NCBI GenBank assembly: GCA_943326015.2
Contig: CALPRQ020000028.1
Coordinates: 1-54,131, forward strand
Direction: 5' to 3'
DNA from: Chitinophaga pinensis
GTDB taxonomy: Bacteria > Pseudomonadota > Gammaproteobacteria > Burkholderiales > Burkholderiaceae_C
Length of the DNA: 54,131 nucleotides
Shown here piece by piece: positions 27,162 to 42,923 of this stretch (positions are counted from its first letter, which is position 1; the number at the start of each line of letters is the position of its first letter). The position numbers and the translations under genes are program-made. Under the pieces are notes generated by a model. It was not told the DNA's origin. It saw nothing but the letters and a program-made list of their open reading frames with translations, and made no database searches.

Positions 27162-29063
27162 ATGGCCCTGCTGCAAATCTCCGAACCCGGCCAGACGCCC
27201 GACCCGCATCAGCGGCGCGTGGCCGTCGGCATCGACCTCGGCACCACCCATTCGCTGGTCGCCTCGGTGCGTCACGGCTTGCCCGAATGCCTGCCCGACG
27301 AGCAGGGCCGGGTGATCCTGCCCAGCGTGGTGCGCTATCGATCGCCCGGTCAGGGCTCCGGCCGCCAGATCGGCTGGGACGCGCTCGCTGCCCAGGTGGA
27401 CGACCCGCACAACACCATCAGCTCGGTCAAGCGCCTGATGGGCCGCAAGCTGTCCGACCTGCAAGCCCAGGGCGTGGCCGCCAAGCTGCCCTATACCGTC
27501 GTCGATGGCCCCGGCATGGCGGCGGTCCGGACCGTGGCCGGCGACAAGTCGCCAGTCGAGGTCAGCGCCGAGATCCTGGCCACGCTGCGTTTCCGCGCCG
27601 AGGACAGCTTCGACAATGAGCTGTTCGGTGCCGTCATCACGGTGCCGGCCTATTTCGACGATGCCCAGCGCCAGGCGACCAAGGACGCCGCGCAGATGGC
27701 CGGTCTCGAAGTGCTGCGCCTGATCAACGAGCCCACCGCGGCGGCGATCGCCTACGGCCTGGACCAGGGCTCGGAAGGCGTCTACGCGGTCTATGACCTG
27801 GGCGGTGGCACCTTCGACGTCTCGATACTGCGCCTGACCCAGGGCGTGTTCGAGGTGCTGGCCACCGGCGGCGATTCCGCGCTGGGCGGCGACGACTACG
27901 ACCGTGCGCTGGCCGACTGGCTGCTGCAGCAATGTGGTTACAGCCTCAAGGCGGGCGAACTGCCGGCCGGCGAGCGTGCCCGCCTGCAGGCCGAGGCGCG
28001 TCGCGTCAAGGAAGTGCTGTCCGCCCATGCCGACGACGGCGTGGCGGTTCGCTTCGAGGTCCTGCTCGACGGCAAGACCCTGGCGCGCGAAGTCACCTAC
28101 GCCGAATTCGCCCACGCCTGCGCCGAACTGACGCAGCGCACCATGGTGGCCGTCAAGCGCGTGCTGCGCGATGCCAGGCTCGACAAGTCCGAGGTCAAGG
28201 GCGTGGTGATGGTCGGCGGCTCGACCCGCATGCCGGTGGTGCAGCAAGTGGTCGGCGAATTCTTCGGCCAGCCGCCGCTGACCAACCTGAATCCGGACGA
28301 AGTGGTGGCGCTCGGCGCCGCGATCCAGGCCAACCAGCTCGCCGGCAACAACCCCGAAGGCGACCTGCTGCTGCTCGACGTCATTCCGCTCTCGCTCGGT
28401 ATCGAAACCATGGGTGGCTTGGTCGAGCGCATCGTGCCGCGCAACACCACCATCCCGACTGCGCTGGCGCAGGACTTCACGACCTTCAAGGACGGGCAGA
28501 CCGCGCTGGCGCTGCATGTGCTGCAGGGTGAGCGCGACCTGGTGGCCGACTGCCGCAGCCTGGCGCGCTTCGAGCTGCGCGGCATCCCGCCGATGCCGGC
28601 CGGTGCCGCGCGCATCCGCGTCACCTTCACCATCGACGCCGACGGCCTGCTGACCGTGGGCGCGAAAGAGCAGGGCAGTGGGGTCGAGGCCCAGATCGTG
28701 GTCAAGCCCAGCTACGGCCTGTCGGACGAGCAGATCGCCGCCATGCTGCAAGACAGCTTCGTCACCGCGCAGCAGGACATGGCCGCGCGCGCGCTGGTCG
28801 AAGCCCGGGTCGAAGCCGAGCGCATGCTCGATGCGACCCGCAGCGCGCTGGCCGCCGACGCCGACCTGCTCGAAGCCGAGCAACTTGCCCAGATCGACCG
28901 CCTGCTGGGCGAGACCGAGGCCATCCGCACCAGCTCGAATGATGCTGCTGCCATCGAGGCCGCCACCGAAGCATTGGCCAAGGGCACCGAACCCTTTGCC
29001 GCGCTGCGCATGAACCGCGGCATCGCCCGCGCCCTGGCCGGCCAAAACGTGGAGAATTTCTGA
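27162..29063 (+). CDS. hscA: Fe-S assembly chaperone HscA (Hsp70 type)
   Basis: The specialised Hsp70 that helps release clusters from IscU. 633 residues starting with the family [11 protein letters not shown]. ATPase motifs [25 protein letters not shown] and [11 protein letters not shown]; substrate domain with [14 protein letters not shown] and a helical lid. The C-terminus lacks the EEVD of DnaK, as expected. The 127-bp gap before it contains a small GCCGG-aaaat-CCGGC hairpin (27061-27075). Confidence 0.96.
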
Positions 29064-29064
29064 C

Positions 29065-29403
29065 ATGCCGATCATCAAGATCCTGCCCCATCCCGAATAC
29101 TGCCCGCAAGGCACCGAGATCCAGGCCCTGCCGGGCACGACCATCTGCGAGGCGCTGCTCGACCACGAGATCGAGATCGAGCATGCCTGCGACATGAGCT
29201 GCGCCTGTACCACCTGCCACGTGATCGTGCGCTCCGGAATGGAGAGCCTCAACGAGGCGACCGAGGAAGAAGAAGACCTGCTCGACAAGGCCTGGGGGCT
29301 GGAGCCCCAGTCCCGCCTGAGCTGCCAGGCGCGCCTGGCCAAGCAGGACCTCACCATCGAGATCCCGCGCTACACCATCAACCACGCGCGCGAGCACCAC
29401 TGA
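29065..29403 (+). CDS. fdx: ISC-type 2Fe-2S ferredoxin
   Basis: A 112-residue adrenodoxin-like ferredoxin supplying electrons for cluster assembly. Ligand cysteines in HACDMSCACTTCHVIV and LSCQARLA; acidic patch EEEEDLLDKAWGL. It starts one base after the hscA stop and is the last clear isc gene; iscX is not seen. Confidence 0.95.
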   Translation: MPIIKILPHPEYCPQGTEIQALPGTTICEALLDHEIEIEHACDMSCACTTCHVIVRSGMESLNEATEEEEDLLDKAWGLEPQSRLSCQARLAKQDLTIEIPRYTINHAREHH

Positions 29404-29416
29404 AAGCGGCAATCCC

Positions 29417-30142
29417 ATGCGCCAGATCGTTCTCGATACCGAAACCACCGGCCTGTCGGCCATCGACGGCGACCGCATCATCGAGATCGGCTGTGTCGAG
29501 CTGCTCAATCGCAAGCTGACCGGCAACAACCGCCATTTCTATCTGCACCCCGAGGACCGTGCCATCCACGAGGAGGCACAGCGGGTGCACGGGATCTCGA
29601 TCGAGTTCCTGGCCGACAAGCCCAAGTTCCGGGCCATCGCGGACGATCTGCTCGACTACTTGCAGGGCGCCGAGCTGATCATCCACAATGCGCCGTTCGA
29701 CATCGGCTTCCTGAACGAGGAGCTGCGCCGGCTCAACCGCGGCCGGATCACCGATCTGATCGGCGGAGTGATCGACACCCTGGCCATGGCCAAGGAGATG
29801 TATCCGGGCAAGCGCAATGGCCTCGATGCGCTGTGCGACCGGCTCGGGGTTGACAATTCGAGCCGCAACTTCCACGGCGCCTTGCTCGACGCCGAACTGC
29901 TGGCCGATGTCTACATCAACCTGACGCGCGGCCAGAACGCGCTCTCGATGGAGGTGGAAACGGGCGAGGCGGGCGCAGACGGTCAGATGGTGGCGGTCGA
30001 CCTGAGCCGCTTCGAGCTGCCGGTACTGGGATTGAGCGAAGCCGAACTGCAGGCGCATGAGTCGCTGCTGGCCGACTTGGACAAGGCCAGCAAGGGCAAG
30101 ACCGTATGGCGTCGGCTGGAGACACAAGCAGTGGCCGCCTGA
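29417..30142 (+). CDS. dnaQ: DNA polymerase III epsilon subunit (3'-5' exonuclease)
   Basis: The proofreading exonuclease of the replicative polymerase. The DEDDh residues are all visible: VLDTETTG (Asp, Glu), IIHNAPFDIGFLN (Asp) and NFHGALLDAELLADVY (His, Asp). 241 residues with the usual C-terminal polymerase-binding tail. It follows fdx by 13 bases and may be co-transcribed with the isc genes. Confidence 0.95.
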   Translation: MRQIVLDTETTGLSAIDGDRIIEIGCVELLNRKLTGNNRHFYLHPEDRAIHEEAQRVHGISIEFLADKPKFRAIADDLLDYLQGAELIIHNAPFDIGFLNEELRRLNRGRITDLIGGVIDTLAMAKEMYPGKRNGLDALCDRLGVDNSSRNFHGALLDAELLADVYINLTRGQNALSMEVETGEAGADGQMVAVDLSRFELPVLGLSEAELQAHESLLADLDKASKGKTVWRRLETQAVAA

Positions 30143-30208
30143 TGGCATCAGGCCGACACAAGGCGCGCTACTTGCACCCGGGCATCGCCCGGGTTTATGA
30201 TGGACTTT

Positions 30209-30230
30209 ATACGTAACTTACGCAAAATAA
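30209..30230. promoter_or_regulatory. TACGTAA-type motif upstream of the recombinase-like gene
   Basis: TACGTAA followed by TTACGCAAAAT lies 20-40 bases before the start of the recombinase-like gene in an AT-rich leader. Similar TACGTAAAAT sequences form the palindrome at 35973-36011, so the two loci may share a regulator. Spacing differs, so this is tentative. Confidence 0.35.
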
Positions 30231-30249
30231 AATTTACATCATTTAAACA

Positions 30250-31317
30250 ATGTCAACCAATCAGAAACCCGAGAAAAACCAAGTTGGCACGCCACTGGAT
30301 TGGTTCGAGTCCTGGCTGCTGCAACGCTCGGTCGAGCGGGAAAACCCGCTCACGCCCGAAGCAGCCGAACCCTACCGCTACATCTGGTCATCCTGGTGCC
30401 AATGGCTGCTCGGCAGACCTGGACAGAAGACAGAGCAGGGCAGCTGGACCGATCTCGTGCTGCAGGCCAGCCCGGCCGATGCGATGGAATTCCTGCTCGA
30501 CCGCGTCAAGCCTGCCACCCAGCGCAACGGCAGCGCGCGTGAGATCTCGATCGTCACCCGCGAGCGCTACTGCATGGTGCTGCGCGGCGTCTACGACCAC
30601 CTCAGGCAGCTGGAGTTGCTGACCGAAAATCCCATGAAGCGCCTGTACGAACTGGCCGGCGAGGACCGGCCGGACGCCGAGGTGTTGCCCGATTCGGTCT
30701 GGAATCACCTTGAACGCCTGGCACGCCAGGAGCCTGGTGACCGCTCGCCGTTTGTGCTGCGCGACCGCGCGCTGATCTGGCTCATGCTCGATGTGGCGCT
30801 GACACCAGCGGAGCTGTCCGCACTGAATCTGGGCCAGCTCGACGAGGCGCCCGCCATCGCGATGGCGGGCGAGGGCGGTTCAGCCAACGCAATAGCGATC
30901 CGGCTGCAGGGGAACAGGGCGGCGCAACGCCGCGACCTGCAACTGAGCGAACAGGCGTCGGCCGCCTTGCGCGACTGGCTGGCAGTCAGGACCGACACGC
31001 TGGAAAAAGGCCACCCCGATGCGCTCGTCGTGTCCGAACTGGTGTTCTTCACCGAGCGGCGCAAACCGCTGTCGCGCCGTGTGCTGTTCCACCTGACCTC
31101 CAAGCTGATCGCTGCTGCCTGCCAGGCAACGGGTCATGAACTGCCGCGCCACCTGGGGCCGCTGGTGCTGCGCAATACCGCCATCCTGCATTGGCTCAAG
31201 GCTGGCATGCCACAAGAGGAGGTGCTGCGGTGCGCCGGCTATCAGGGCAGGATTTCGCTGGAGCACCTGCGCGCGCATCTGCCGCGCGACAGCGGCCAAG
31301 CGCAGCCGATCGAATGA
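30250..31317 (+). CDS. Tyrosine-recombinase-like protein with a lost active site
   Basis: A 355-residue protein with the two-domain layout of phage integrase/Xer recombinases: a SAM-like core-binding domain (about 20-125) and a C-terminal domain of matching length. The catalytic residues are mostly gone. The Arg-I motif reads ALTPAEL instead of GLRISEL. The HxLRH motif reads PLVLRNTAILHWL, keeping only the Arg. The final GH...Y motif reads GYQGRISLEHLRAHLP with no Tyr. It therefore probably binds DNA without cutting it, or is decaying. The frame is intact and codon use is normal, favouring a maintained non-catalytic role. ATG at 30250; the leader carries a TACGTAA motif. Confidence 0.78.
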   Translation: MSTNQKPEKNQVGTPLDWFESWLLQRSVERENPLTPEAAEPYRYIWSSWCQWLLGRPGQKTEQGSWTDLVLQASPADAMEFLLDRVKPATQRNGSAREISIVTRERYCMVLRGVYDHLRQLELLTENPMKRLYELAGEDRPDAEVLPDSVWNHLERLARQEPGDRSPFVLRDRALIWLMLDVALTPAELSALNLGQLDEAPAIAMAGEGGSANAIAIRLQGNRAAQRRDLQLSEQASAALRDWLAVRTDTLEKGHPDALVVSELVFFTERRKPLSRRVLFHLTSKLIAAACQATGHELPRHLGPLVLRNTAILHWLKAGMPQEEVLRCAGYQGRISLEHLRAHLPRDSGQAQPIE

Positions 31318-31393
31318 AACGGTAGTTCACGGCCCTATCTGTGCCAGACTGCAAGCAACACGCCAACCAGTACCGAATCCGAATCCACACTGC

Positions 31394-33121
31394 ATGGAAC
31401 ACAACATTCCCCTGATCACCACGCTCGTTTCAGGCTTCAGCGTCGCGCTCATCCTGGGTTTCATCGCCGAGCGCATCAAGGTGCCGGCACTGGTCGGCTA
31501 CCTGGTGGCTGGCATCATCATTGGCCCGGGCACGCCGGGATTCGTGGCCGATGTCCATCTGGCCGCCCAGTTGTCCGAAATCGGCGTCATGCTGCTGATG
31601 TTCGGCGTCGGCCTGCATTTCTCGCTCAAGGACCTGCTGGCGGTCAAGCGCATCGCCGTGCCCGGTGCCGTGGTGCAGATGAGCCTGGCCACCCTGCTCG
31701 GCATGGCCGTGGCCTGGTGGTGGGGCTGGAGCTGGGGCGCTGGTCTGATTTTCGGCCTGTCCTTGTCCTGCGCCAGCACGGTGGTGTTGCTCAAGGCGCT
31801 GGAAGCCCGTGGCGTGCTCGACAGCATGAACGGCCGCATAGCAGTCGGCTGGCTGGTGGTCGAGGATCTGGCGACCGTGCTGGTGCTGGTCCTGCTGCCG
31901 CCGCTGTCCGGCATGCTGGGTGGATCGGCCGTCGAAGTGGCTGGCGCCCAGCCGCTCTGGCTCACGATCGGCAAAACCCTGCTCCAGGTGGCGGCCTTCA
32001 TCGTCATCATGTTGGTGGCCGGGCGTCGCGTGCTGCCCTGGTTGCTGTGGCAGATTGCACGAACCGGCTCGCGCGAGCTGTTCACGCTCTCCGTGATCGT
32101 CGCTGCCATCGGCATCGCCTACGGTGCGGCCCAACTGTTCAGCGTCTCGTTTGCACTCGGCGCGTTCTTCGCCGGCATGGTCATGCGCGAGTCCAAGTTC
32201 AGCCACCGGGCCGCGACAGAATCCTTGCCGCTGCGCGATGCCTTCTCGGTGCTGTTCTTCGTCTCGGTGGGCATGCTGTTCGAGCCGGGCATCCTGCTGG
32301 AGCAGCCGCTGCATGTGCTGGGCGTGGTGGCCATCATCATCTTCGGAAAGTCGATTGCAGCCTTCGGCCTGGTGCTGGCTTTTCGCTATCCGCTCAACAC
32401 GGCGCTGACGGTCTCGGCCAGCCTGGCGCAGATCGGCGAGTTCTCCTTCATCCTGGCTGGACTGGGGCTATCGCTGGGCCTGCTGCCAGCCGAAGGCATG
32501 AGCCTGGTGCTGGCCGGAGCGCTGATCTCGATTGCGCTGAACCCGCTGCTGTTTGCCGCCATCGAGCCGCTGCGGCGCTGGATTCTTGCACGCTCGGACC
32601 TGGCCCGCAGCCTGGAGCAAAGAGCCGACCCCTATGCCGAGCTGCCGATGAGCACCGAGCGCAAATACCTGCAAGGACAAGTCGTTCTGGTGGGCTATGG
32701 CCGGGTCGGAAAGCGGATTGCCGGTGCGCTGGAGGAGAGCGGCATTCCCTACGTGGTGGCCGAACAGAATCGTGAACTGGTCGAAGACCTGCGCCAGCAG
32801 GGCAAGGTGGCCGTATCAGGCAATGCCGCCGATCCGATGGTGCTGATCCAGGCCCATATCGCCGAGGCCGCCATGTTGGTGGTGGCGACGGCCGATCCGT
32901 TCAATGTGCGTCAGATGGCCGAAACGGCAAGAAAGCTCAATCCCGGCATAGAAATCGTGCTGCGCACGCATAGCGAGGATGAGTCGGTGCTGCTGCGCAG
33001 GGATGGCATCGGCACGGTCTTCCTGGCTGAAGAAGCACTGGCCCAGGGCATGACCGAGCATGTGCTGGAGCGCATGGGAGTGCAAACAGACGCAAAAGAC
33101 CCCGCGTCATCCCATGCCTGA
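31394..33121 (+). CDS. ybaL: Kef/YbaL-family cation:proton antiporter with RCK (TrkA-N) domain
   Basis: A 575-residue inner-membrane monovalent cation/H+ antiporter. Residues 1 to about 390 form the CPA2 transporter (GFIAERIKVPALVGYLVAGI, LLMFGVGLHFSLKDLLAVK, SCASTVVLLKALEARG, AIGWLVVEDLATVLVLVLLPP). From about 420 a cytosolic RCK domain with nucleotide-binding VLVGYGRVGKRIAGAL regulates it. The N-terminal block is much closer to YbaL than to KefB/KefC as I recall them. The start MEHNIPLITTLVSGF is well inside a longer open frame. Confidence 0.9.
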   Translation: MEHNIPLITTLVSGFSVALILGFIAERIKVPALVGYLVAGIIIGPGTPGFVADVHLAAQLSEIGVMLLMFGVGLHFSLKDLLAVKRIAVPGAVVQMSLATLLGMAVAWWWGWSWGAGLIFGLSLSCASTVVLLKALEARGVLDSMNGRIAVGWLVVEDLATVLVLVLLPPLSGMLGGSAVEVAGAQPLWLTIGKTLLQVAAFIVIMLVAGRRVLPWLLWQIARTGSRELFTLSVIVAAIGIAYGAAQLFSVSFALGAFFAGMVMRESKFSHRAATESLPLRDAFSVLFFVSVGMLFEPGILLEQPLHVLGVVAIIIFGKSIAAFGLVLAFRYPLNTALTVSASLAQIGEFSFILAGLGLSLGLLPAEGMSLVLAGALISIALNPLLFAAIEPLRRWILARSDLARSLEQRADPYAELPMSTERKYLQGQVVLVGYGRVGKRIAGALEESGIPYVVAEQNRELVEDLRQQGKVAVSGNAADPMVLIQAHIAEAAMLVVATADPFNVRQMAETARKLNPGIEIVLRTHSEDESVLLRRDGIGTVFLAEEALAQGMTEHVLERMGVQTDAKDPASSHA

Positions 33122-33126
33122 GTCCA

Positions 33127-33150
33127 GCCGGCTGTCACTGGGCAGCCGGC
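33127..33150. terminator. Hairpin between the antiporter and HiPIP genes
   Basis: GCCGGCTG (33127-33134) pairs perfectly with CAGCCGGC (33143-33150) a few bases after the antiporter stop. The T-run after it is weak. Placement between convergent genes suggests a terminator. Confidence 0.55.
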
Positions 33151-33172
33151 AGTTTCCTCGATCCCGAGACAG

Positions 33173-33520
33173 TCAGGCTTTCTTGGCCCACAGGACGCAC
33201 CAGCCGCTCGGGTTGATCGGCCCCTCGACCAGCTTGCAGGTGCTCGATTCGGCCTGGAAATGCATGCACAAGCTGCATTGCTGATCCCCTTTGGGCTGCT
33301 CCTGATACTGGACGGTTTCCTTTTTCACTTTGTTCGTGGCGGCTGGGGCGTTTTCGGTAGCTGTCGCGGCAGGAGCAGGAGCAGCAGGCGGCGCTGTGCT
33401 GGCTGAGTAGCCGCTGTTCTTCGAGTCACAGCCGGAAAACAGGGCCGGCATGCACAGGCTTGAACCGAGTGCCAATGTGCCGCGCAGTAGCTCCCGACGC
33501 GATGGAATGTCTTGTCTCAT
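33173..33520 (-). CDS. High-potential iron-sulfur protein (HiPIP), Tat-exported
   Basis: A 115-residue periplasmic electron carrier with one 4Fe-4S cluster. A twin-arginine signal (PSRRELLRGTLALGSSLCM) is followed by ALFSGCDS, which resembles a lipobox, then a 25-residue Ala/Pro/Thr linker and the HiPIP fold. The four ligands have family spacing (CSLCMHFQAESSTCKL, PSGWCVLW). A strong GGGAGAG ribosome site supports the start at 33520. It may be membrane-tethered by a lipid on the Cys, with the linker as a leash; this is inference. Confidence 0.88.
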   Translation of the reverse strand: MRQDIPSRRELLRGTLALGSSLCMPALFSGCDSKNSGYSASTAPPAAPAPAATATENAPAATNKVKKETVQYQEQPKGDQQCSLCMHFQAESSTCKLVEGPINPSGWCVLWAKKA

Positions 33521-33570
33521 GGTTTGCTCTCCCTGGTTGAATGGCTTCAAGTGACAGCCATCGCTCATTC

Positions 33571-34071
33571 TCATGTGATAGGGATCGGCTGATCTGTACG
33601 TTGCGACACAGAAAGGTGTTCCGGGGTCGCGAGCATTTGGTGATAGGTGATGTAGACATCTTCGCGTTCGTAACCCAGCGACTCGTACAGACTTTGTGCA
33701 ACCCGGTTGGTGGTGGCGGTATCCAGTGTCAAGCGCTGAGCACCTTCACGGGAGAAGTGATCGGTGATGTAGTTCATCAGATACCGGGCATACCCATTTT
33801 TTCTCGCCGATTTGCTCACATACAGGTCGGACAGGTAGTAGTAAGGACGCATCGCCAGCGAACAAATGGCGGGATACAGCTGCGAAAACCCGACAGCTGT
33901 GCCTTCTTCATCAAGCAACAAGAAGATTCTGGAGCGTGCTTGCGCCAGGTTCTGCTGAATAAAGGCGCGGCTGGCTGCCAGATCCGTTTCCTGTTGGTAG
34001 AAAATGCGATATTCGTTGAACAATGCAGCGAGGATGTCCAGTTGTGCTTCGTCGCAGTGGATGACTTGCAT
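33571..34071 (-). CDS. GNAT-family N-acetyltransferase
   Basis: A 166-residue acetyl-CoA-dependent transferase: MQVIHCDEAQLDILAALFNEYR start, beta-strands IFLLLDEEGTAVGFSQLYPA and YYYLSDLYVSKSARKNGYARYLMNYI (the Q/RxxGxG/A acetyl-CoA loop, here ARKNGYAR), and VAQSLYESLGYERED at the end. Substrate unknown. ATG at 34071 fits the family better than the longer frame that starts at 34137. It ends 50 bases upstream of the HiPIP gene on the same strand. Confidence 0.88.
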   Translation of the reverse strand: MQVIHCDEAQLDILAALFNEYRIFYQQETDLAASRAFIQQNLAQARSRIFLLLDEEGTAVGFSQLYPAICSLAMRPYYYLSDLYVSKSARKNGYARYLMNYITDHFSREGAQRLTLDTATTNRVAQSLYESLGYEREDVYITYHQMLATPEHLSVSQRTDQPIPIT

Positions 34072-34127
34072 GGGGTACTTCTTTCGACGGGCCGTTCGGC
34101 CGTCGGGCAGGGGACCGAGCAGCCATG

Positions 34128-34162
34128 AAAAAAGCACTCAGGCGGTGTGCGCTGAGTGCTTT
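34128..34162 (-). terminator. Terminator of the tRNA-Val cluster
   Basis: On the minus strand an 11-bp perfect stem (34152-34162 with 34131-34141) has a 10-base loop and ends in a run of T. It begins five bases after the CCA of the last tRNA. Confidence 0.9.
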
Positions 34163-34166
34163 GATC

Positions 34167-34241
34167 TGGTGGGCGATACATGGATCGAACATGTGACCCC
34201 TGCAGTGTGAATGCAGTGCTCTACCGCTGAGCTAATCGCCC
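34167..34241 (-). tRNA. tRNA-Val(CAC), promoter-distal copy
   Basis: The cloverleaf is complete: acceptor GGGCGAT/ATCGCCC, D stem GCTC/GAGC, anticodon stem CTGCA/TGCAG with loop TTCACAC (anticodon CAC, reads GUG), T stem ACATG/CATGT with TTCGATC, discriminator A and encoded CCA (34167-34169). Confidence 0.96.
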
Positions 34242-34279
34242 TTGGCTACCTTCTCAAGGGAAGGCAGTCAGGTATGGTT

Positions 34280-34354
34280 TGGTGGGCGATACATGGATCG
34301 AACATGTGACCCCTGCAGTGTGAATGCAGTGCTCTACCGCTGAGCTAATCGCCC
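34280..34354 (-). tRNA. tRNA-Val(CAC), middle copy
   Basis: Identical to the 34167-34241 copy over all 75 bases, including encoded CCA. Starts exactly 113 bp from it. Confidence 0.96.
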
Positions 34355-34392
34355 TTGGCTGCCTTCCCAAGGGAGGACAGTCAGGAATTTTC

Positions 34393-34467
34393 TGGTGGGT
34401 AATACATGGATCGAACATGTGACCCCTGCAGTGTGAATGCAGTGCTCTACCGCTGAGCTAATCACCC
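34393..34467 (-). tRNA. tRNA-Val(CAC), promoter-proximal copy
   Basis: Same anticodon, arms and CCA as the other two, but the acceptor reads GGGTGAT with ATTACCC, one G-T wobble, so it differs from the other copies at two positions. First gene of the cluster. A TAGAAT -10-like hexamer lies just upstream (34476-34481 on the minus strand), without a clear -35. Confidence 0.95.
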
Positions 34468-34557
34468 GAAGCCGCTATTCTATGCCGAAAAAACCTGGCC
34501 TCGGAGCAGGGCGTGGATTTTTTTGAATCGGGACGGGCAGGGCGCCTGCAGCCGGAA

Positions 34558-35838
34558 TCAGTCCTCGCCCCGGGCCTGTTCCAGCGCCTGCAAGGCGCCC
34601 ACGCGCCGCTTGGCGTCACCGTGGTAGTACATGCGCACGGTGATGGCCGGGTCCTTGTGGCCCAGGCGCTCGGCAGCGTCAGCGATCGGGAAATGGCCGT
34701 TGATCGCCTCGGACGCGCCCGAATGCCGGAACCAGTGCGGCGAGATCTGGCGCAGTCGTTCCGCCAGTGACTGGACTTCGAGGTCTTCAGGCGAGGGGTG
34801 CGACGCCAGCAGCCTGTCGGCGGCAGCGGCGCCCAGTTCCTTGATCTCGCCGAACAGCGCGCGCGGCGTCATCGAGGGGTAGTGACTGCCACTGCGGCGC
34901 AACGAAACCACCGCCGGAATATCGGTCTCGTGCCGCTGCGGCAGCGATGGCAGGCCCAGCGCCTCGCGGTAGGCGATGAGTTCCTTCATCACGGCAGGAG
35001 TGATTTCGACCGCGCGTACCTTGCGACCCTTGCCGTGGACCGAGGCGAACCAGACTCCGCCGCGCTGGCGGAAGTCGCTCATGCGCAAGCCGGACAGTTC
35101 CGAGATCCGCATCCAGAGGTTGAACAGTGCGACCGTGATCCAGCGCAGCCGGATGGCACGCTGCTGCTGGATGGTCGTTTCTGCCTGCTGCAGCATCTGG
35201 TCGGTGGTCGCGAGCAGGCGCAGGTAGGCGGTGGGCTCGAACACGCGATCGGTCTTGGCGTCGTGCTTGACGATGAAGCGCCCGAGGTCGGAGAACGGGT
35301 TGAAGTCGAGCAGCGCGTCGTCGGCGGCGGAGCGCTTGGTGTTGTTGAACTTGTAGAGCGATGACAACGCCGCGATGGTCTGCGCGACCGAGCGATGCGA
35401 CTTGGGGCGCGCAAAGGGGTTGCTGGCAACCCCGAAATGGTTGGGCAAGGCCTTCGGGCGGCGGTCCTGCCAGAACGGCGCCGGACCGGTGCGCGCCAGC
35501 TCGAACTGGCCCACACCGGAGGCCCTGATCGCCGCGTTGCGGGGGGCGCCGTCGTCCAGCGCTTCATGCGTCAGCGCACGCAGGAAGTCGTGCGCGTCCG
35601 CAGGGCCGGCGCGTCGCAGCAGGTCGGCGTGGTGGCCATGGGTCTGTTCGAGGAAATACAGCCAGTAAGCCGCGACGCGCTGGTAGGCGCGATGCGTGTG
35701 CGGGCTCTTGCGCCTGAAGGGTTCGAGCCAGTTGCCGACTGCGGTCAGGTCGAACAGCAGACCGGGCTGCTGCCTGGCGTCGGCCGGAAGCACGAATCCG
35801 TCCAGGATCTCGCCGTCATGTTCGTGGTGGTCGGGCAT
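34558..35838 (-). CDS. Tyrosine recombinase/integrase, complete active site
   Basis: A 426-residue site-specific recombinase. The core-binding domain spans about residues 30-190 (SPHTHRAYQRVAAYWLYFLEQ). The catalytic domain keeps the full set: Arg in WMRISELSGLRMSDF, Lys in the hairpin VHGKGRKVRAVEI, HxxRH in SPHWFRHSGASEAI, His in ERLGHKDPAIT and the Tyr nucleophile in VRMYYHG. It is longer than XerC/D (about 300) because of an extended N-terminal domain and an insert before HxxRH. It is divergent from a coiled-coil protein gene across 206 bp that hold a dif-like site and a palindrome. It lies upstream, not downstream, of the tRNA cluster, so it is not a standard tRNA-island integrase. Confidence 0.92.
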   Translation of the reverse strand: MPDHHEHDGEILDGFVLPADARQQPGLLFDLTAVGNWLEPFRRKSPHTHRAYQRVAAYWLYFLEQTHGHHADLLRRAGPADAHDFLRALTHEALDDGAPRNAAIRASGVGQFELARTGPAPFWQDRRPKALPNHFGVASNPFARPKSHRSVAQTIAALSSLYKFNNTKRSAADDALLDFNPFSDLGRFIVKHDAKTDRVFEPTAYLRLLATTDQMLQQAETTIQQQRAIRLRWITVALFNLWMRISELSGLRMSDFRQRGGVWFASVHGKGRKVRAVEITPAVMKELIAYREALGLPSLPQRHETDIPAVVSLRRSGSHYPSMTPRALFGEIKELGAAAADRLLASHPSPEDLEVQSLAERLRQISPHWFRHSGASEAINGHFPIADAAERLGHKDPAITVRMYYHGDAKRRVGALQALEQARGED

Positions 35839-35932
35839 TTTTCACTTGTTGAGGCTGCTTGAGGTCGCTTGGGATGCTGATCTGGATTGTGCCGCGTTTG
35901 TGGAGCGGCATCACCCTGCCGGATAAGACCCA

Positions 35933-35960
35933 GGTTCCGATAATTCACATTATCGGAAAT
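35933..35960. other. dif-like tyrosine-recombinase core site (or dyad operator)
   Basis: GGTTCCGATAA (35933-35943), a 6-bp centre TTCACA (35944-35949) and TTATCGGAAAT (35950-35960). The 11-6-11 layout and the ATAA/TTAT inner ends with GGT and AAAT outer ends match the architecture of Xer dif sites. The inner nine bases of the arms (TTCCGATAA and TTATCGGAA) are perfectly complementary, as expected for one recombinase acting alone. It lies 95 bp upstream of an intact recombinase gene. A symmetric operator is the alternative reading. Confidence 0.55.
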
Positions 35961-35972
35961 TCAAAAAACAAA

Positions 35973-36011
35973 TACGTATTTTTATTACGTAATACGTCAT
36001 GAAAATACGTA
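35973..36011. promoter_or_regulatory. 39-bp TACGTA palindrome
   Basis: Two 18-bp arms (35973-35990 and 35994-36011) around AAT match at 16 of 18 positions when one is inverted. ACGT occurs at 35974, 35987, 35994 and 36007, giving spacings of 13, 7 and 13. It lies just before the coiled-coil protein gene and probably covers one or both divergent promoters. Likely binding site for a dimer-of-dimers regulator, perhaps the coiled-coil protein itself. Confidence 0.6.
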
Positions 36012-36044
36012 AAATCCCTTCTGCTAGGATCACAAGGAAAAACC

Positions 36045-37109
36045 ATGAGCACAGAGCAAAAGACGCCCCCCCAGGAAATCGAGAACACCGCCGCCGATGT
36101 CGAAACCCGGTTGCAGCAGACCTTGCAAAGCTTGCTCGCTCCCATGGCCGCGCAGCAGGTCACGGCGCGCGAGGCCTACGCCGCCATGACGCGCGTCGTG
36201 GCCCGCATCGAAGGCGATGTCCCGAGCGGCGCCCGGCTGGTCGGCCTGCTGCAGCTTTTCAACGCCCAGCGGCCCGCCGGCTTGCCGGCGATCCCGGCCG
36301 GGACGGCTGGCGTGGCGCAGGACTGTGTGGCGGCCTATCGAAGATCGCTGGTGCGTGCGAGCGCCCAGGGCGTGGCGCACCCGTCGCTGCCGGTGGACAT
36401 GATCGAGGGGCTCAATCGCTGGCTCGAGCGCCTGCTGAAGCTGATGAAGGATGAGATCCGCCGTCCCTACGAGGCCGAGGCGATCAGCCTGCGCGCGCGG
36501 CTGGATGAAGAACTTGCCGCCATGCGGCTGGCCGCCGAGGCCGAACGGCAAACGGCGCGTGCCGCCCTGCAGGAAACGGAAAACCGGCTGCAGCAAAGCC
36601 AGCAACAAGCGCAGGATCTACAACGTCAATGCGAGGCGCTGGAGCAGCGCATGGCCGATCTGAACCAGGGCCTGCAGGCCGCTATCGCTGAAAACCGGGA
36701 GCTGTCAGCCCGCGCGGCCGTGCTGCAGTCCAAGGCGCAGGAATCGGAAAAGCGCCAGGGTGAGCTCGATGCTGCGCTGCGCGTGGCTCAGTCGGCCAGT
36801 GACGAGGAACGGCGCCAGCGACTGCTGGCGATCGACAGCGCGCGGGTGGTCGAGCAGGAGCTCGCACGCGAAAGGGAAAAGCGCAAAGCCGCCGACTCGC
36901 TGGCCCGCACGCTGGAGAAATACCTGGAGGAAGAAAAGGCCCGGGCTGCGGCGCTGCAAGTCGCCTTGTCGGAGGCCCAGCTCAAGAGCTTCCAGCACGC
37001 CAAAATCGAAGAGATGCCGGCCTCCGCCAAGACCGGTCCGAACCGGATCAAGCCGGCAAGACGCACCATCGCGGCTCCCGCCCCGCTACGCAGAAAAACG
37101 CTGCGCTGA
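36045..37109 (+). CDS. Long coiled-coil, KfrA-like putative DNA-binding protein
   Basis: A 354-residue protein with good ribosome site AAGGAAA. The first 110 residues are mixed helical (AAQQVTAREAYAAMTRVVARIEG, VPSGARLVGLLQLFNAQR) and could hold a winged-helix like the KfrA N-terminal domain. From about 135 to 325 there is continuous heptad-rich coiled coil (Ala/Glu/Gln/Arg). The last 30 residues are strongly basic (KTGPNRIKPARR, PLRRKTLR). The layout resembles plasmid KfrA proteins, which bind their own promoter and help partition. It is divergent from a recombinase and next to a dif-like site and large palindrome. KfrA membership is a structural guess; sequence identity was not tested. Confidence 0.7.
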   Translation: MSTEQKTPPQEIENTAADVETRLQQTLQSLLAPMAAQQVTAREAYAAMTRVVARIEGDVPSGARLVGLLQLFNAQRPAGLPAIPAGTAGVAQDCVAAYRRSLVRASAQGVAHPSLPVDMIEGLNRWLERLLKLMKDEIRRPYEAEAISLRARLDEELAAMRLAAEAERQTARAALQETENRLQQSQQQAQDLQRQCEALEQRMADLNQGLQAAIAENRELSARAAVLQSKAQESEKRQGELDAALRVAQSASDEERRQRLLAIDSARVVEQELAREREKRKAADSLARTLEKYLEEEKARAAALQVALSEAQLKSFQHAKIEEMPASAKTGPNRIKPARRTIAAPAPLRRKTLR

Positions 37110-37152
37110 GCCGTACGACGCGCAGCATGGCTCGCGGTCCGGCGCCCTTCCC

Positions 37153-37887
37153 TTACCAGGTGGGCGGTCCGGTCCGGGCGCGCAAGGCCCGACGGATCGG
37201 GTCGGCAATGTCCCGGCGACCTGCACCAACGGCAAAGTCCAGTGCGGTGAGGCCCTGCTGGTTCTTGATCGTGACATCGGCGCCCGATTCAAGCAGCAGG
37301 CGCACGGAATCCGGGTGGCCGTAGCGGGCGGCCATCATCAGCGGCGTCGACTCGTTGGGAGAAGCCGCATCGATGTAGGCGTGCTGCTCCAGCAGCAAGT
37401 CGATCATCTCGACGCTGACCGGACTCGCGTGGGTCGCCGCGTAATGCAGCGGCGTCCAGCCGGGCTGGTTGACTTCGGCGCCCTGCCGGATCAGCAGCCG
37501 CATCAGACCGACATGCCCGCGCAGCGCAGCCAGCATCAGTGCGTTTTCTCCGCTGGCGTTCAGCGCATCGAGGTCCAGCCCAGGTTGCTGGATCAGGAAC
37601 TCGGCCGCCCGCAGCGAATCCAGCTTCAGCGCCAGCAGCAGCGGCGCCTGGCCGTTCTCGTCCAGGGTGTTGAAGTCGAAGCCGCGCTGCTGCAGGCGGC
37701 GCAGGGTGGCGACATCGTCCAGGCGCAAGGCGCGCAGGAAGTCCTCGTAGGCGCCGGCCGCAGCGGGTTGACACAGGCCGGCGGCGAAGGAGCCCGCGAC
37801 CAGTAGACGGATCAGCGCAGCGCGGCGGTCGAGTCCGGCGGTCGTGGGTCGATCGGGAGCTGGGTGTTGCAGGGAGGCGTGCTGCAT
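37153..37887 (-). CDS. Exported ankyrin-repeat protein
   Basis: A 244-residue protein with an N-terminal signal (LIRLLVAGSFAAGLCQPAAAG) and about five ankyrin repeats from residue 50 (NGQAPLLLALKLDSLRAAEFL, SGENALMLAALRGHVGLMRLL, WTPLHYAATHASPVSVEMIDL, ESTPLMMAARYGHPDSVRLL, GLTALDFAVGAGRRDIA). A periplasmic protein-binding role is likely; partner unknown. It is the last gene of the mltG-tmk-holB-pilZ-tatD series, 48 bases after tatD. Confidence 0.87.
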   Translation of the reverse strand: MQHASLQHPAPDRPTTAGLDRRAALIRLLVAGSFAAGLCQPAAAGAYEDFLRALRLDDVATLRRLQQRGFDFNTLDENGQAPLLLALKLDSLRAAEFLIQQPGLDLDALNASGENALMLAALRGHVGLMRLLIRQGAEVNQPGWTPLHYAATHASPVSVEMIDLLLEQHAYIDAASPNESTPLMMAARYGHPDSVRLLLESGADVTIKNQQGLTALDFAVGAGRRDIADPIRRALRARTGPPTW

Positions 37888-37935
37888 GGGGATGTGGGCG
37901 TGACAGGGGACCAGAGGGTGGCGAACGGTCGCGGG

Positions 37936-38748
37936 TCAGGCGCTGGCCATGTCACGGAACAGCGCCAGCGTGTTGGCGCTAGTTGCCCGCGCAACGGCCT
38001 CGATCGACAAGCCCTTGAGATCGGCCAGTTTCTGGGCGACATGGGGCACGTAGGCCGGCGTGTTGGTCTTGCCCCGGTAAGGGACAGGTGCCAGGTAGGG
38101 GCTGTCGGTCTCGATCAGGCAACGATCCAGCGGCACGAAGCGCGCGACCTCGTGCAGGTCGGTCGCATTCTTGAAGGTCAGGATGCCGGAAAACGAGATA
38201 TGGAAACCCAGTTCCAGCGCGGCACGGGCCACCTCGACCGATTCGGTGAAGCAGTGGAAGACGCCGCGCGCCTGCGGCAGCGTCCCTGCCCCTGTCGGGC
38301 TGAAACCACCCTCTTCCTTCAGGATCGCCAGCGTGTCGTCAGACGCGCTGCGGGTGTGGATCACCAGCGGCAGATCGGTCTGGCGCGCGGCACGGACATG
38401 GGCCCGGAAGCGATCGCGCTGCCATTCCATGTCGGCCAGGCTGCGCTCGCCCAGGCGATAGTAGTCCAGCCCGGTCTCGCCGATACCGACCACGCGCGGG
38501 CGTTGCGAGAGTTCGACCAGTTCCTCGACGCTGGGCTCGCGCACGCCCTCGTTGTCGGGGTGCACGCCCACGGTGGACCAGAGCATCTCATGGCTGAGGG
38601 CCAGTTCATGCACGCGGTCGAACTCCTCCAGCGTGGTGCAGATGCACAGCGCGCGCTCGACCTGCGCCTGGCGCATGGACTGCAAGATTTCCGGCAGTTG
38701 CGCGCGCAGTTCGGGAAAGCTCAGATGGCAATGGGAATCGATGAACAT
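37936..38748 (-). CDS. tatD: TatD-family metal-dependent hydrolase
   Basis: A 270-residue TIM-barrel hydrolase, family members being Mg-dependent 3'-5' DNases or D-aminoacyl deacylases. Metal ligands: FIDSHCHLSF, Glu in VVGIGETGLDYY, His in LVIHTRSA, His in GVFHCFTES and Asp in LIETDSPYLAPVPYRGK. The gene order holB-pilZ-tatD is typical of proteobacteria, so this is probably the YcfH-type member. Confidence 0.93.
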   Translation of the reverse strand: MFIDSHCHLSFPELRAQLPEILQSMRQAQVERALCICTTLEEFDRVHELALSHEMLWSTVGVHPDNEGVREPSVEELVELSQRPRVVGIGETGLDYYRLGERSLADMEWQRDRFRAHVRAARQTDLPLVIHTRSASDDTLAILKEEGGFSPTGAGTLPQARGVFHCFTESVEVARAALELGFHISFSGILTFKNATDLHEVARFVPLDRCLIETDSPYLAPVPYRGKTNTPAYVPHVAQKLADLKGLSIEAVARATSANTLALFRDMASA

Positions 38749-38768
38749 AGGAAAAAGAAAAAACCGTT

Positions 38769-39137
38769 TCAGACGGTCTGGTTGCTGCGGTCGGATGCGA
38801 GGTGCGCGCCCAAGATGGTCTCGATGCGCGACTTGAGCTGGCGCGACTTGTCATCGGCGGGAAAGCTGATGCCGATGCCCTGGGTGCGCCCGCCGGAGGC
38901 GCCGGCCGGCGTGATCCAGGCCACCTTGCCCGCCACCGGATAGCGCTGCGGGTCGTCCGGCAGGGTCAGCAGCAGGTAGACGTCCATGCCCAGATGGTAT
39001 TCGCGCGCGGTCGGCACGAAGATGCCACCTTCTGCGAACAAGGGGATGTAGGCCGCATAGAGCGCGCCCTTTTCCCGGATCGCCAGCTGAATCACGGCGG
39101 GGCGGGCGACCTGGTCTGAAGCGGCGGGCGTGCTCAT
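38769..39137 (-). CDS. pilZ: PilZ-domain protein (type IV pilus assembly PilZ type)
   Basis: A 122-residue single-domain protein: LQLAI-like start, ALYAAYIPLFAEGGIFVPT, GMDVYLLLTLPDDPQRYPVAGKVAWITP and GIGISF. It lacks the RxxxR c-di-GMP motif, as does the founding Pseudomonas PilZ, which acts in pilus biogenesis with PilB/FimX. It lies between holB and tatD, the usual place of pilZ. Confidence 0.9.
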   Translation of the reverse strand: MSTPAASDQVARPAVIQLAIREKGALYAAYIPLFAEGGIFVPTAREYHLGMDVYLLLTLPDDPQRYPVAGKVAWITPAGASGGRTQGIGISFPADDKSRQLKSRIETILGAHLASDRSNQTV

Positions 39138-39144
39138 TGGAAGA

Positions 39145-40188
39145 TCAGTTCAAGGCCAGCGCCGAGCGGGCCCTGCCGGCCCAGGCCTCCTGCAGCAAAC
39201 CGGCGTTGTAGGGGTGCTCGACCGAGCGTGCCGCCTGCTGCAGCGCCTTGTGCCATTGCAGCAGCGCGGCAAGCCCTGGTGCGCGTGGCAGATCGGCAGC
39301 GGCGAAGAAGCGCGGCTCGCCCTGGCTGGCAACGACCATCAGGTCGTGGCAGAGCTTTTGCAGCAGGTCGAGCTGGCGTGCCGGTGCCCAGTCGGCAATG
39401 GCTGACCAGTCGCCGCGAGCAACGGACTGCGGCAGCTGAGCCCAGCCCGAAGCCGGCAGCCCGAGCCGCGCCAGCGTCAGCGCCTCGTCGGGACGACCGC
39501 CTGCGGCCTGCAACCAGGTCGCCAGCGCTGCGCGCGTGGGCGGCTTGCCGGCAAAGGCCTGATCGCCCTGCACGGCGGTCTCCAGCCAGGCCAGCGCTTC
39601 AGCCTGTGCCGGCCATTCCAGCGTATGCGCCTGGCAGCGGCTGCGCAGGGTCGGCAGCAGCGCATGGGCGGCATCGGTCGCGAGCACGAAGCGCAAGGCA
39701 CCCGGCGGCTCTTCCAGCGTCTTGAGCAGGGTGTTGGCCGACTCCATGTTGAGCCGGTCGGCCGGATAGACCAGCACCACCTTGGTATTGCCACGCGAGC
39801 GGGTGAACTGGGTGAAGGCCACCGCTTCCCGGGTCGCATCGACGCGGATGAACTTGCCGGGCTTGAGCTCCTTCTTGTCGATCTTGTCCTGGGTGCGCTC
39901 ATCCAGCGGCCAGCCGAGTTCGATCGCCAGCGTTTCGGGCATCAGCACGAACAGGTCGGGATGGGTACGCACGTCGACTGCGTGGCAGCTGTCGCAGCGA
40001 CCGCAGGCGCCCTGCTCCGGGCTCGGTGACTCGCACAGCCAGGCGCGCGCCAGCGCCAGCGCCAGCGCGTACTGGCCCAGCCCGGGCGGGCCGCTCAGCA
40101 GGACGGCGTGGCCGCGCTGCTGTTGCAAGGCGATCAGCTGGCGCTGCAGCCACGGCGGCAGCAACAGGCCGTCGGTGAATTCGTTCAT
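39145..40188 (-). CDS. holB: DNA polymerase III delta' subunit
   Basis: The 347-residue clamp-loader stator. AAA+ fold with degenerate P-loop ([12 protein letters not shown], lacking the Lys, as delta' does not hydrolyse ATP), a zinc module ([10 protein letters not shown] with an upstream Cys), [25 protein letters not shown] and the sensor LPTLRSRCQ. Its ATG overlaps the tmk stop by three bases (ATGA); the longer in-frame start at 40212 is less likely. Confidence 0.94.
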
Positions 40189-40826
40189 GCCTGCCCCCAG
40201 CGGCGTTCGCAATGCTGCAGCACCTGCTCACGCACGGCGTCCAGGCTCAGGCTGGCATCGATGCGAGCGAAACGCTGCGGCGCCTGTGCCATGCGCGCGG
40301 CATAGCCACCAGCCACCCGGTGGAAGAAGGGTTCGGCCTCTGATTCGAACTTGTCGGGCGTGCGCGCACCCGCCAGACGAAGCGCAGCGAGCGCCGGCGG
40401 CAGGTCGAACCAGAAGCAGAGCTCTGGCTCCAGCAGGCGGTCCTGTCCAGGGAGCTGCTGCGCCCATTGCTCCAGCTGCTGCAAGACCTGCAGATCGAAG
40501 CCGCGGCCATGGCCCTGGTAGGCAAAGGTCGCGTCGGTGAAACGATCGGAGATCACGACCTCGCCACGCGCGAGTCCCGGCAGGATCACCTGCTGGATAT
40601 GGTCGCGCCGGGCCGCGAACATCAGCAGTGCCTCGCTCAATGGGTCCATGGCGTCATGCAGCAACAGTTCGCGCAGTTTTTCCGCCAGCGGCGTGCCGCC
40701 AGGCTCGCGCGTCAGCGTGACTTGCCGGTCGCGCGCGCGGAACCAGTCGGCCACCGCAGCGATATGGGTGGACTTGCCGGCACCGTCGATGCCTTCGAAA
40801 CTGATGAACAAACCGGTTTGCGTCAT
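40185..40826 (-). CDS. tmk: Thymidylate kinase
   Basis: Phosphorylates dTMP to dTDP. 213 residues: P-loop [30 protein letters not shown] (dTMP binding), [16 protein letters not shown] and the LID segment. It overlaps holB and follows mltG by 15 bases in the same transcript. Confidence 0.96.
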
Positions 40827-40841
40827 GTGGGGCCTTGGGAA

Positions 40842-41873
40842 TCAACGATCCAGAATATAGCGGCGCACCGCGCGGTTGTGTTCTTCGAGCGTGGCGCTGA
40901 ACTGGCTGGTGCCGTCGCCACGCGCAACGAAATAGAGCGCCTGGCTGGCGGCCGGACGTAGCGCAGCGCGGATCGAGGCCAGGCCCGGCATGGCGATCGG
41001 CGTAGGCGGCAGGCCGGCACGGGTGTAGCTGTTGTACGGCGTGTCGGCCAGCAGGTCGCGCTTGCGCAGGTTGCCGTCGAAGCCAGCCCCCAGGCCGTAG
41101 ATCACGGTCGGGTCGGTCTGCAGCCTCATCCCCAGGCGCAGGCGGTTGATGAAGACGGCCGCGATCAGGGGACGGTCGGCGCTGGCGCCGGTCTCCTTCT
41201 CGATCACGCTGGCCAGTATCAGCGCCTCATCGGCTGACTTGAGCGGCAGATCCGGCGCGCGATCAGCCCAGGCCTGCGCGAGCTGGCGCTGCATCGCGGC
41301 CGCGGCCTGGCGCAGCACGGCCGAGGCCTTGTCGTGCTTGGGATAGAGGTAGGTGTCAGGGAAGAAGCGGCCCTCGGGGTGCTGGCCCGGCAGGCCCAGC
41401 GCGCGCATGAGATCGGCGGGCTGCTGCAAGGCCGATTCGGGCAGGTCCCAGCTCAGTTGCTCGGCGCTCTTGAGCGCCTGCAGCAGCTGGCGATAGTTCC
41501 AGCCCTCGACCAGGGTGACGCGGCGCAGTGCCTGCTCGCCACGCACCAGGCGGTCCAGCAGCTGCAGCGGCGTCATGCCGACCGGGATCTCGTAGCTGCC
41601 CGCCTGGACCTGGCGCGACTGTCCGGACAGGCGCAGCCAGCCATACAGCAGCCAGGACGGAGCACGCACCCCCGCATCGTGCATCTGCTGCGCGACCTGA
41701 CGCGCCGAAGAACCGGTGGGAATGTTGAGATCCAGCGGTGCCGATCCGGCACCCGCCAGCTCCAGCGGCCGGTGCAGCCACCAGGCGGCTCCAGCAGCGG
41801 CCATCACGGCGACAGCCAGCAGGCCGGTCATGCCAGGAATCCACCTATTTTTCACTCGATGCTGCACAACCAT
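40842..41873 (-). CDS. mltG: Endolytic murein transglycosylase MltG
   Basis: Cuts nascent peptidoglycan strands at the inner membrane, setting glycan length. 343 residues from the ATG at 41873: a short cytosolic tail, one TM (GMTGLLAVAVMAAAGAAWWL), a LysM-like segment and the YceG catalytic domain. The catalytic Glu is in LASVIEKETG, with DPTVIYGLG and YNSYTRAGLPPTPIAMPG. The open frame extends further upstream into the divergent ygfZ region, so the start could be the GTG shortly inside it. Confidence 0.93.
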   Translation of the reverse strand: MVVQHRVKNRWIPGMTGLLAVAVMAAAGAAWWLHRPLELAGAGSAPLDLNIPTGSSARQVAQQMHDAGVRAPSWLLYGWLRLSGQSRQVQAGSYEIPVGMTPLQLLDRLVRGEQALRRVTLVEGWNYRQLLQALKSAEQLSWDLPESALQQPADLMRALGLPGQHPEGRFFPDTYLYPKHDKASAVLRQAAAAMQRQLAQAWADRAPDLPLKSADEALILASVIEKETGASADRPLIAAVFINRLRLGMRLQTDPTVIYGLGAGFDGNLRKRDLLADTPYNSYTRAGLPPTPIAMPGLASIRAALRPAASQALYFVARGDGTSQFSATLEEHNRAVRRYILDR

Positions 41874-41945
41874 CCGGCCTTTGGGAAAATCGAAGCCCGC
41901 AATGATATTCGACCGCCATGCAGGCGGCCCACGGACACTGCCACC

Positions 41946-42923
41946 ATGAGCGCCATCCCTACTCTTACCCCAATGCCCGCTGCCTTCAAGGCGGCTCCCT
42001 TGTTTGACAGCACCAGCGTCCACGGTCTGGCCCGACTGGACCACTGGGGCGTGATCCGTGCCCAGGGCGCCGATGCGGTGTCTTTCCTGCATGGGCAGCT
42101 GACGCAGGACTTCGCCTTGCTGGGCCAGTCCGAGGCGCGGCTGGCGGGCTACTGCTCGGCCAAGGGCCGCATGCTGGCCAGCGTCATCGGCTGGAAAACC
42201 GGACCCGAGGAGGTCCTGCTGGCCTGCAGCCGCGACCTGCTCGCGCCCACGCTCAAGCGCCTGTCGATGTTCGTCATGCGCGCCAAGGTCAATCTCAGCG
42301 ACGCCTCGGCCGAGTTCGCCCTCTACGGCGCGGCGGGATCAGCCTTGCCTGCCGAACTTCCCACCAACCCTTGGAGTCGGCTGGAGGCTGCACCGGGGAG
42401 CTGGATCCGCCTGCCGGCAGCCGAAGGCGTGGCGCGCGCCCTGCTCTGTCTGCCAGCCCAACAAGCCCAGTCCGAAGCGCTGCCCGCCAATCTGGCGCCT
42501 GCGCTCTGGCAATGGCTGGAGGTGCACAGCGGCATCGCCATGGTCAGCGCACCGGTGATCGAGGAATTCGTGCCGCAGATGCTCAATTACGAATCGGTCG
42601 GCGGCGTCAACTTCAAGAAGGGCTGCTACCCGGGCCAGGAGGTGGTCGCGCGCAGCCAGTACCGTGGCGCACTCAAGCGCCGCGTGCAGATCTTCCATGC
42701 CGAGGCCGAGCCGAAGGTCGGGCAGGAGGTCTTTCATGCGAGCGATGCCGATCAGCCCTGCGGGACTGTCGTTGCCGTGGCGCCACACCCGGTGCAGGGC
42801 TGGGATGCCATCGTCTCGCTGCAGACCAGTGCGCTCGATGGCCAGGTGCTGACCCTGGGTTCGGCCGCTGGCGCCGCGCTGCTGCTGCTGCCCCTGCCTT
42901 ACGAGCTGCTGCAGGACATCTGA
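41946..42923 (+). CDS. ygfZ: Folate-binding Fe-S maintenance protein YgfZ
   Basis: A GcvT-like protein that uses tetrahydrofolate to help keep certain 4Fe-4S enzymes intact, notably MiaB. The signature K-G-C-Y-x-G-Q-E is present (VNFKKGCYPGQEVVARSQYRG). N-terminal GVIRAQGADAVSFLHGQLTQDF and AGYCSAKGRMLAS are family-typical. 325 residues; divergent from mltG with a 72-bp gap. Its 3' end overlaps the convergent kinase gene by 25 bases. Confidence 0.93.
   Translation: MSAIPTLTPMPAAFKAAPLFDSTSVHGLARLDHWGVIRAQGADAVSFLHGQLTQDFALLGQSEARLAGYCSAKGRMLASVIGWKTGPEEVLLACSRDLLAPTLKRLSMFVMRAKVNLSDASAEFALYGAAGSALPAELPTNPWSRLEAAPGSWIRLPAAEGVARALLCLPAQQAQSEALPANLAPALWQWLEVHSGIAMVSAPVIEEFVPQMLNYESVGGVNFKKGCYPGQEVVARSQYRGALKRRVQIFHAEAEPKVGQEVFHASDADQPCGTVVAVAPHPVQGWDAIVSLQTSALDGQVLTLGSAAGAALLLLPLPYELLQDI

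Follow-up and report, generated by a model that had tools for sequence, protein, structure and literature searches.

The stretch analyzed here, referred to as the window, comprises 54,131 nucleotides (contig CALPRQ020000028.1 of assembly GCA_943326015.2) and belongs to Malikia, a genus of water bacteria in the Comamonadaceae. A 206-bp gap at 35839 to 36044 separates the minus-strand open reading frame (ORF) of a tyrosine recombinase, termed REC, from a divergent plus-strand ORF encoding a coiled-coil protein, termed the helper. The gap holds a dif-like repeat, and the three parts together are referred to as the module. The features of the locus, numbered from the first letter of the window, are as follows.

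34558 to 35838, minus strand: gene for REC, a tyrosine recombinase of 426 amino acids (PF00589, 56.3 bits), proposed to be the single chromosome-dimer recombinase
35885 to 35899, no strand: conserved block GATTGTGCCG[C/T]GTTT, seen in the alignment of five Malikia species
35919 to 35926, plus strand: CCGGATAA, an arm-like direct repeat left of the core, present in all five Malikia sequences
35933 to 35960, no strand: candidate core recombination site (arms at 35933 to 35943 and 35950 to 35960, center at 35944 to 35949), recognized by the repeat, its conservation, and the same arms near REC relatives
35973 to 36011, no strand: accessory region with ACGTAATACGT at 35987 to 35997 and a 19-nt imperfect inverted repeat, proposed as helper site and operator
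36045 to 37109, plus strand: gene for the divergent helper, 354 amino acids, with an N-terminal helical domain and a long coiled coil, KfrA/TnpT-like
37153 to 37887, minus strand: ankyrin-repeat gene, which anchors the ancestral dif slot on the right
37936 to 38748, minus strand: tatD, which likewise anchors that slot on the right

The core reads GGTTCCGATAA TTCACA TTATCGGAAAT, an 11-6-11 repeat in which the inner nine bases of one arm are the perfect mirror image of those of the other, as the initial annotation of this DNA had described. Dinucleotide shuffling of the gap, repeated 2000 times, produced a perfect 9-6-9 repeat in 3 cases. By itself, symmetry is weak evidence for a site, because the whole window holds three such repeats (at 17064, 30848, and 35935) versus a mean of 0.7 in 30 shuffles. 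Conservation is stronger evidence than mirror symmetry: 23 of the 28 columns of the core are invariant across four Malikia species, where 28-bp stretches of the gap average 13.9 and reach a maximum of 23. The 39-bp accessory element adjoining the coiled-coil gene is the second most conserved stretch of the gap. Column conservation was computed without G004 (L038), owing to an insertion in that genome; about 20 bp are inserted there in inverted orientation in the site region, making the palindrome longer in a way that resembles template switching. The insertion could be an assembly artifact.

The Malikia set consists of five draft genomes that are 84 to 99% complete, namely that of the window (G000) and four relatives (G001 to G004), which are Malikia sp. 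STC_66, M. granosa, M. spinosa (G003), and a Burkholderiales metagenome-assembled genome. REC, one site, and the divergent coiled-coil gene are kept in all five. The initial annotation had suggested counting copies of the site in related genomes and had regarded its absence alongside recombinase homologs as a sign against its proposal. A search allowing up to three mismatches found the site once in each Malikia genome, always adjoining the REC ortholog, and a site with the same arms accompanies the REC homolog of G066, a member of another genus of the family. The proposal that the recombinase, its own site, and the divergent gene form one module is thus borne out by its conservation in the five genomes and by the recurrence of the arms near related recombinases of other genera (G066 and G702). 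The REC ORF is intact, with active-site residues R244, K273, H368, R371, H394, and Y404 all in place. Orthologs in the four other Malikia genomes are 85 to 92% identical for REC and 65 to 88% identical for the helper, and dN/dS ratios of 0.08 to 0.24 and 0.17 to 0.40, respectively, indicate purifying selection on both. In a general survey of 60 genomes, one per genus apart from Malikia (5 Malikia plus 55 others), no ortholog-level match to REC was found in the 55 others; ten further genomes gave weaker matches only.

XerCD/dif is among the most conserved systems of circular bacterial chromosomes. In the survey, the XerD and XerC models found neither protein in any of the five Malikia genomes, with no match above about 95 bits. 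XerD scored above 320 bits in 50 of the 55 non-Malikia genomes, and both XerC and XerD were missing only in G012 (65% complete), G051, and G054. REC itself scores 63.1 and 50.1 bits against the NCBIfam XerC and XerD equivalog models, under the curated cutoffs of 335.15 and 329.6, and 29.8 bits against the XerS model, the cutoff of which is 267. The seven PF00589 matches in G000 are REC, a decayed homolog (described below), P4-type integrases, a phage-type integrase, and a companion of one integrase. Canonical dif, searched for within three mismatches, was found in none of the five Malikia genomes versus 13 of 17 other family members. The pattern used was taken from the Rhodoferax dif of PMC2731167 and replaced a broader one that found dif in only 10 of the 60 genomes and in none of the five of Malikia. 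With both patterns negative in Malikia and a score of 4 to 9 bits on a matrix of the family's dif sites, identification of the site as canonical dif was rejected. The gamma domain of FtsK is kept in all 60 genomes, those of Malikia included (5/5).

What the initial annotation missed is the place of the module, which is the ancestral dif slot at a switch in the orientation of FtsK-orienting polar sequences (KOPS). The slot was compared among 16 relatives picked for having dif or few contigs. The gene order MltG-Tmk-HolB-(PilZ)-TatD-ankyrin is kept in these, except that PilZ is undetected in G018 and G030 and ankyrin in G009, and that G013 is cut by its stretch. Canonical dif lies at most 2 kb from tatD-ankyrin, on the tatD strand, in 10 of the 16, and Malikia has the module in that slot. 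It lies about 5 kb off in G030, about 16 kb off in G008, and at other locations in G007 and G014, and it was not found in the stretches examined of G011 and G022.

The KOPS motif counted was GGGNAGGG. Summed over the five Malikia stretches, 19 motifs point inward and 1 outward to the left of the site, with 41 inward and 13 outward to the right. These stretches are related and not independent; single-genome P values are 0.013 (G002) and 0.019 (G001). In each of the three long Malikia contigs, the best KOPS switch coincides with the site; the four controls, also contigs of G000, gave no switch with P below 0.08. For the positive control, 14 canonical dif loci in relatives, the counts are 31 to 3 on the left and 36 to 1 on the right. 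That the module occupies this slot and lies where KOPS change polarity points to a role in chromosome dimer resolution.

Taken from the sequences, the module, its conservation, the failure to find XerCD and dif, the location, and the KOPS convergence suggest that a plasmid-type module took the dif slot in an ancestor of Malikia and now resolves chromosome dimers, with xerC, xerD, and canonical dif lost. We put the probability of this reading at roughly 0.8. On dimeric sister chromosomes, FtsK would follow the converging KOPS to the terminus and bring two sites together. Four REC subunits would occupy both arms of each site, with REC alone carrying out recombination, and cleavage on either side of TTCACA via Y404, followed by strand exchange, would resolve the dimer. 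The helper, on ACGTAATACGT, may shape or regulate the complex and probably controls its own promoter. We infer binding, cleavage, dependence on FtsK, and the role of the helper from these comparisons, as we do the direction of events. If the reading is correct, Malikia shows a host function taken over by a selfish maintenance module in the same slot. It would also make testable the driving of an unrelated recombinase by FtsK and the role of KfrA/TnpT-like coiled coils in strand exchange, and recombinase-helper pairs at KOPS convergence would provide a search route for hidden dimer-resolution systems in XerCD-less genomes.

The kind of module, which the initial annotation did not recognize, appears to be a KfrA/TnpT-like helper with a tyrosine recombinase. 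Profile-profile comparison of the helper with KfrA_N-type helpers gives a probability of 87% (E value, 3.8e-6), and the AlphaFold model predicts four helices followed by a single 195-residue helix (117 to 311), the fold expected of the KfrA type. Plasmids gave no match for the helper protein or for the site region. In G066, REC is 54.5% and the helper 38.5% identical to those of the window, with TTCCGATAA ATTACA TTATCGGAA between them, and G702 has Malikia-type arms around GTTAAA, adjoining a KfrA_N-type helper. Plasmids pA81 and Acidovorax sp. T1 p1, as well as G183 and G430, carry helper and recombinase genes in divergent pairs, with a six-base center between arms of other sequence. The motif ACGTAATACGT is exact in four of the five Malikia genomes, G066, G183, and pA81; it has one mismatch in M. 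spinosa and p1 and two mismatches in G702 and G430, and it is not recognizable in Tn4651, G566, G490, or G165. Layout, core repeat, and helper-side ACGTAATACGT match the KfrA-linked recombinase modules of plasmids. In G066 (L159, 9441 to 9468), a dif-like sequence of 23 bits, the best in 46 kb, lies just downstream of the REC gene and might mark entry of the module by Xer recombination.

A recombinase tree, which included neither XerH nor XerS, groups Malikia with G066 (100/99), followed by a plasmid recombinase of R. ferrireducens and then G165, and places TnpS on a very long separate branch. Sequence matches to REC in the PDB are weak only, all to XerD or an archaeal XerC-like protein. In a Foldseek search with the predicted structure of REC, a weak model overall (mean predicted local distance difference test score, 53.6), XerH chains take the first six ranks.

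By analogy, we propose that the Malikia module functions in the manner of XerH/difH, XerS/difSL, and XerL/dif and that its construction resembles TnpS-TnpT/rst or the KfrA-linked plasmid pairs. XerH and XerS are described, in PMC5357621 and PMC2731167, as one recombinase with a dif-like site by its gene at the terminus, in genomes without XerCD. Malikia is alike in its single recombinase with an adjoining dif-like site and in that XerCD was not found, and XerH is the top Foldseek match. However, XerH and XerS have 354 to 362 amino acids versus 426 for REC, the divergent coiled-coil helper and the accessory motif are features of Malikia, and the Malikia site is unlike the difH sequences printed in PMC2731167. 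In the XerL/dif system of the Legionellales, a single recombinase replaces XerCD, and the arms are uninterrupted long inverted repeats (PMC9765430). In L. pneumophila, over 400 kb separate xerL from dif; the text consulted does not mention a helper gene, and Malikia is likened to it by description. Two of the features that mark single-recombinase dimer resolution are found in the Malikia drafts, in which XerC and XerD were not found and the site lies at KOPS convergence. Malikia shares with XerCD/dif the 11-6-11 layout, a low-GC noncoding site, KOPS convergence, and the same slot and strand, and differs from it in the failure to find XerC and XerD and in the low dif-matrix score given above.

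TnpS-TnpT/rst resolves the cointegrates of Tn4651-type Tn3 transposons (PMC7157771 and PMC4619425). It has in common with Malikia a divergent tyrosine recombinase and coiled-coil helper, a core repeat between them, and a second repeat on the helper side. The Malikia module differs in having no linked transposase in the scanned ORFs and a helper that does not match KfrA_N directly. No Tn3 transposase was found among the window ORFs scanned from 26970 to 42092. Classification as a plain TnpS/TnpT member was rejected, as no transposase was seen nearby and TnpS lies on its long separate branch. The KfrA-linked pairs of pA81, Acidovorax sp. T1 p1, and G183 share with Malikia the divergent arrangement, a 6-bp center, and a ACGTAATACGT-like motif on the helper side, although they have different arms and are either plasmid borne, with a function on plasmids that is presumed, or on XerCD-positive chromosomes. 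A search of the open literature, with subscription journals mostly outside it, found no account of dimer resolution in Malikia or of a KfrA-linked chromosomal system.

G165 (87% complete) shows the same pattern as Malikia with a different module, judging from its gene content and synteny. It has no XerCD match above 105 bits, and a KfrA_N-type helper and a 29% REC match lie in an operon behind TTGTGATTA CTTATA TAATCACAA, a 9-6-9 repeat. Inward-pointing KOPS outnumber outward-pointing ones there by 10 to 2 to the left and by 3 to 1 to the right (P = 0.06). Its flanking genes match ones that, in G014 and G007, adjoin canonical dif. XerCD is lacking in 15 of the 28 non-Malikia genomes that gave a REC-family match (clustered in about five lineages), versus 3 of 55 in the general sample. 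Burkholderiales without XerC/XerD-level matches are G439, G483, G651, G708, G784, G490, G529, and G566, and further ones are G627, G656, G610, G668, G696, G054, and G051. G439, G490, G566, G054, and G574 have too few KOPS motifs or no convergent switch. It is possible, and we suggest it only tentatively, that in Burkholderiales, with Malikia and G165 as the minimum set, plasmid-type KfrA-linked modules have taken the dif slot and displaced XerCD more than once; chromosomes would then carry a class of systems for dimer resolution that have a coiled-coil helper of their own. In G566, the single match to the XerD model is a helper-linked recombinase with an 11-6-11 palindrome upstream.

Several observations weigh against capture of the dif slot by a module that now resolves dimers. 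In G066, XerC and XerD are present and no KOPS switch lies near the module, so the module in itself is not a chromosomal system. Real dif sites score 36 to 53 bits on the family matrix versus 4 to 9 for the Malikia sites, which are the best match in none of the five stretches, so descent of the site from dif lacks support. The C-terminal FtsK contact region of XerD is, by inspection and unscored, not evidently common to REC, and the helper alone has no direct match to KfrA_N (PF11740). GC skew across the site contigs is too weak to add to the placing of the terminus and shows no clean flip; the terminus is placed by KOPS and synteny because the Malikia genomes are drafts only. Distant REC relatives in XerCD-less G529 and G627 are not at a KOPS switch, for which reason an extension of the takeover to these genomes was rejected and the wider XerCD-less pattern is a lead only. 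Finally, the arms are slightly asymmetric in sister species, with right arm TTAACGGAA in G002 and TTAACAGAA in G001 and G003; since G004 has its inverted insertion as well, perfect symmetry is a trait of the window species and not general to the genus. The initial annotation had argued from symmetry that one recombinase acts on both arms. That argument is not supported as it stands, as sister arms differ at one or two bases. The claim itself is plausible, given that the search of the genus turned up neither XerC nor XerD.

The asymmetric arms of G001, G002, and G003 would suit a two-subunit system like XerC/XerD, with REC on one arm and a second protein, such as the decayed homolog at 30250 to 31317, on the other. 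A homolog of this decayed protein is located some 2 kb away from the G165 site. However, both the window and G066 have arms of perfect symmetry, and no copy of the decayed homolog turned up in the 20-kb stretches from G001 and G004 (it may lie elsewhere) or in the G066 stretch, and we consider such a division of labor improbable. It is also unlikely that the module is a domesticated element or plasmid remnant that entered dif via XerCD, in the manner of an integrative mobile element exploiting Xer (IMEX), and was kept for some other reason, with dimers resolved otherwise or not at all. Although mobile DNA is known to enter at dif (PMC9765430) and relatives of the module are found on plasmids and, in G066, off the KOPS switch, neither a second flanking site nor a dif remnant was found in Malikia by the site search or by the search for canonical dif within three mismatches. 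An IMEX lies between two dif-type sites, whereas each Malikia genome has one site. Furthermore, the module has stayed in one slot under purifying selection across five species, none of which yielded XerCD, and KOPS still switch at the site.

Because the repeat lies between divergent genes and the neighboring ACGTAATACGT element is operator-like, it could be only an operator of divergent promoters and not a recombination site. This is very unlikely, as the nine-base arms around a six-base center recur, with changed centers, near related recombinases in G066 and G702, other recombinase-helper pairs differ in their arms and keep the six-base center, and the Malikia site occupies the dif slot. That all five genomes are drafts leaves room for XerC, XerD, and dif to be present in assembly gaps or to be too divergent for the models, an explanation that is extremely improbable, since two genes would need to be missing from five assemblies of the completeness given above and the same models recover XerD in nearly all the other survey genomes (50/55).

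Directly downstream of the REC gene are three tandem tRNA-Val(CAC) genes (34167 to 34467, minus strand). A tRNA-targeted island was rejected, because REC lies at the 5' side of the tRNA-Val array, a conserved context of the housekeeping kind, and because the search showed no second site. A phage origin was also rejected; the protein has no relative on viral contigs, and phage records gave four weak partial matches. Exact copies of the core arms are present on 21 viral contigs, and 3 of these have a REC-like ORF close to the site. Viral contigs L225, L238, and L240 have exact TTCCGATAA-N6-TTATCGGAA sites close to recombinase-like ORFs. The decayed homolog (30250 to 31317, plus strand) is a tyrosine-recombinase-like protein of 355 amino acids that is without most of the active-site residues. 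It has an 85% match in G002, a partial match at a contig end in G003, and a 33% match near the G165 module, along with matches on 22 plasmid records.

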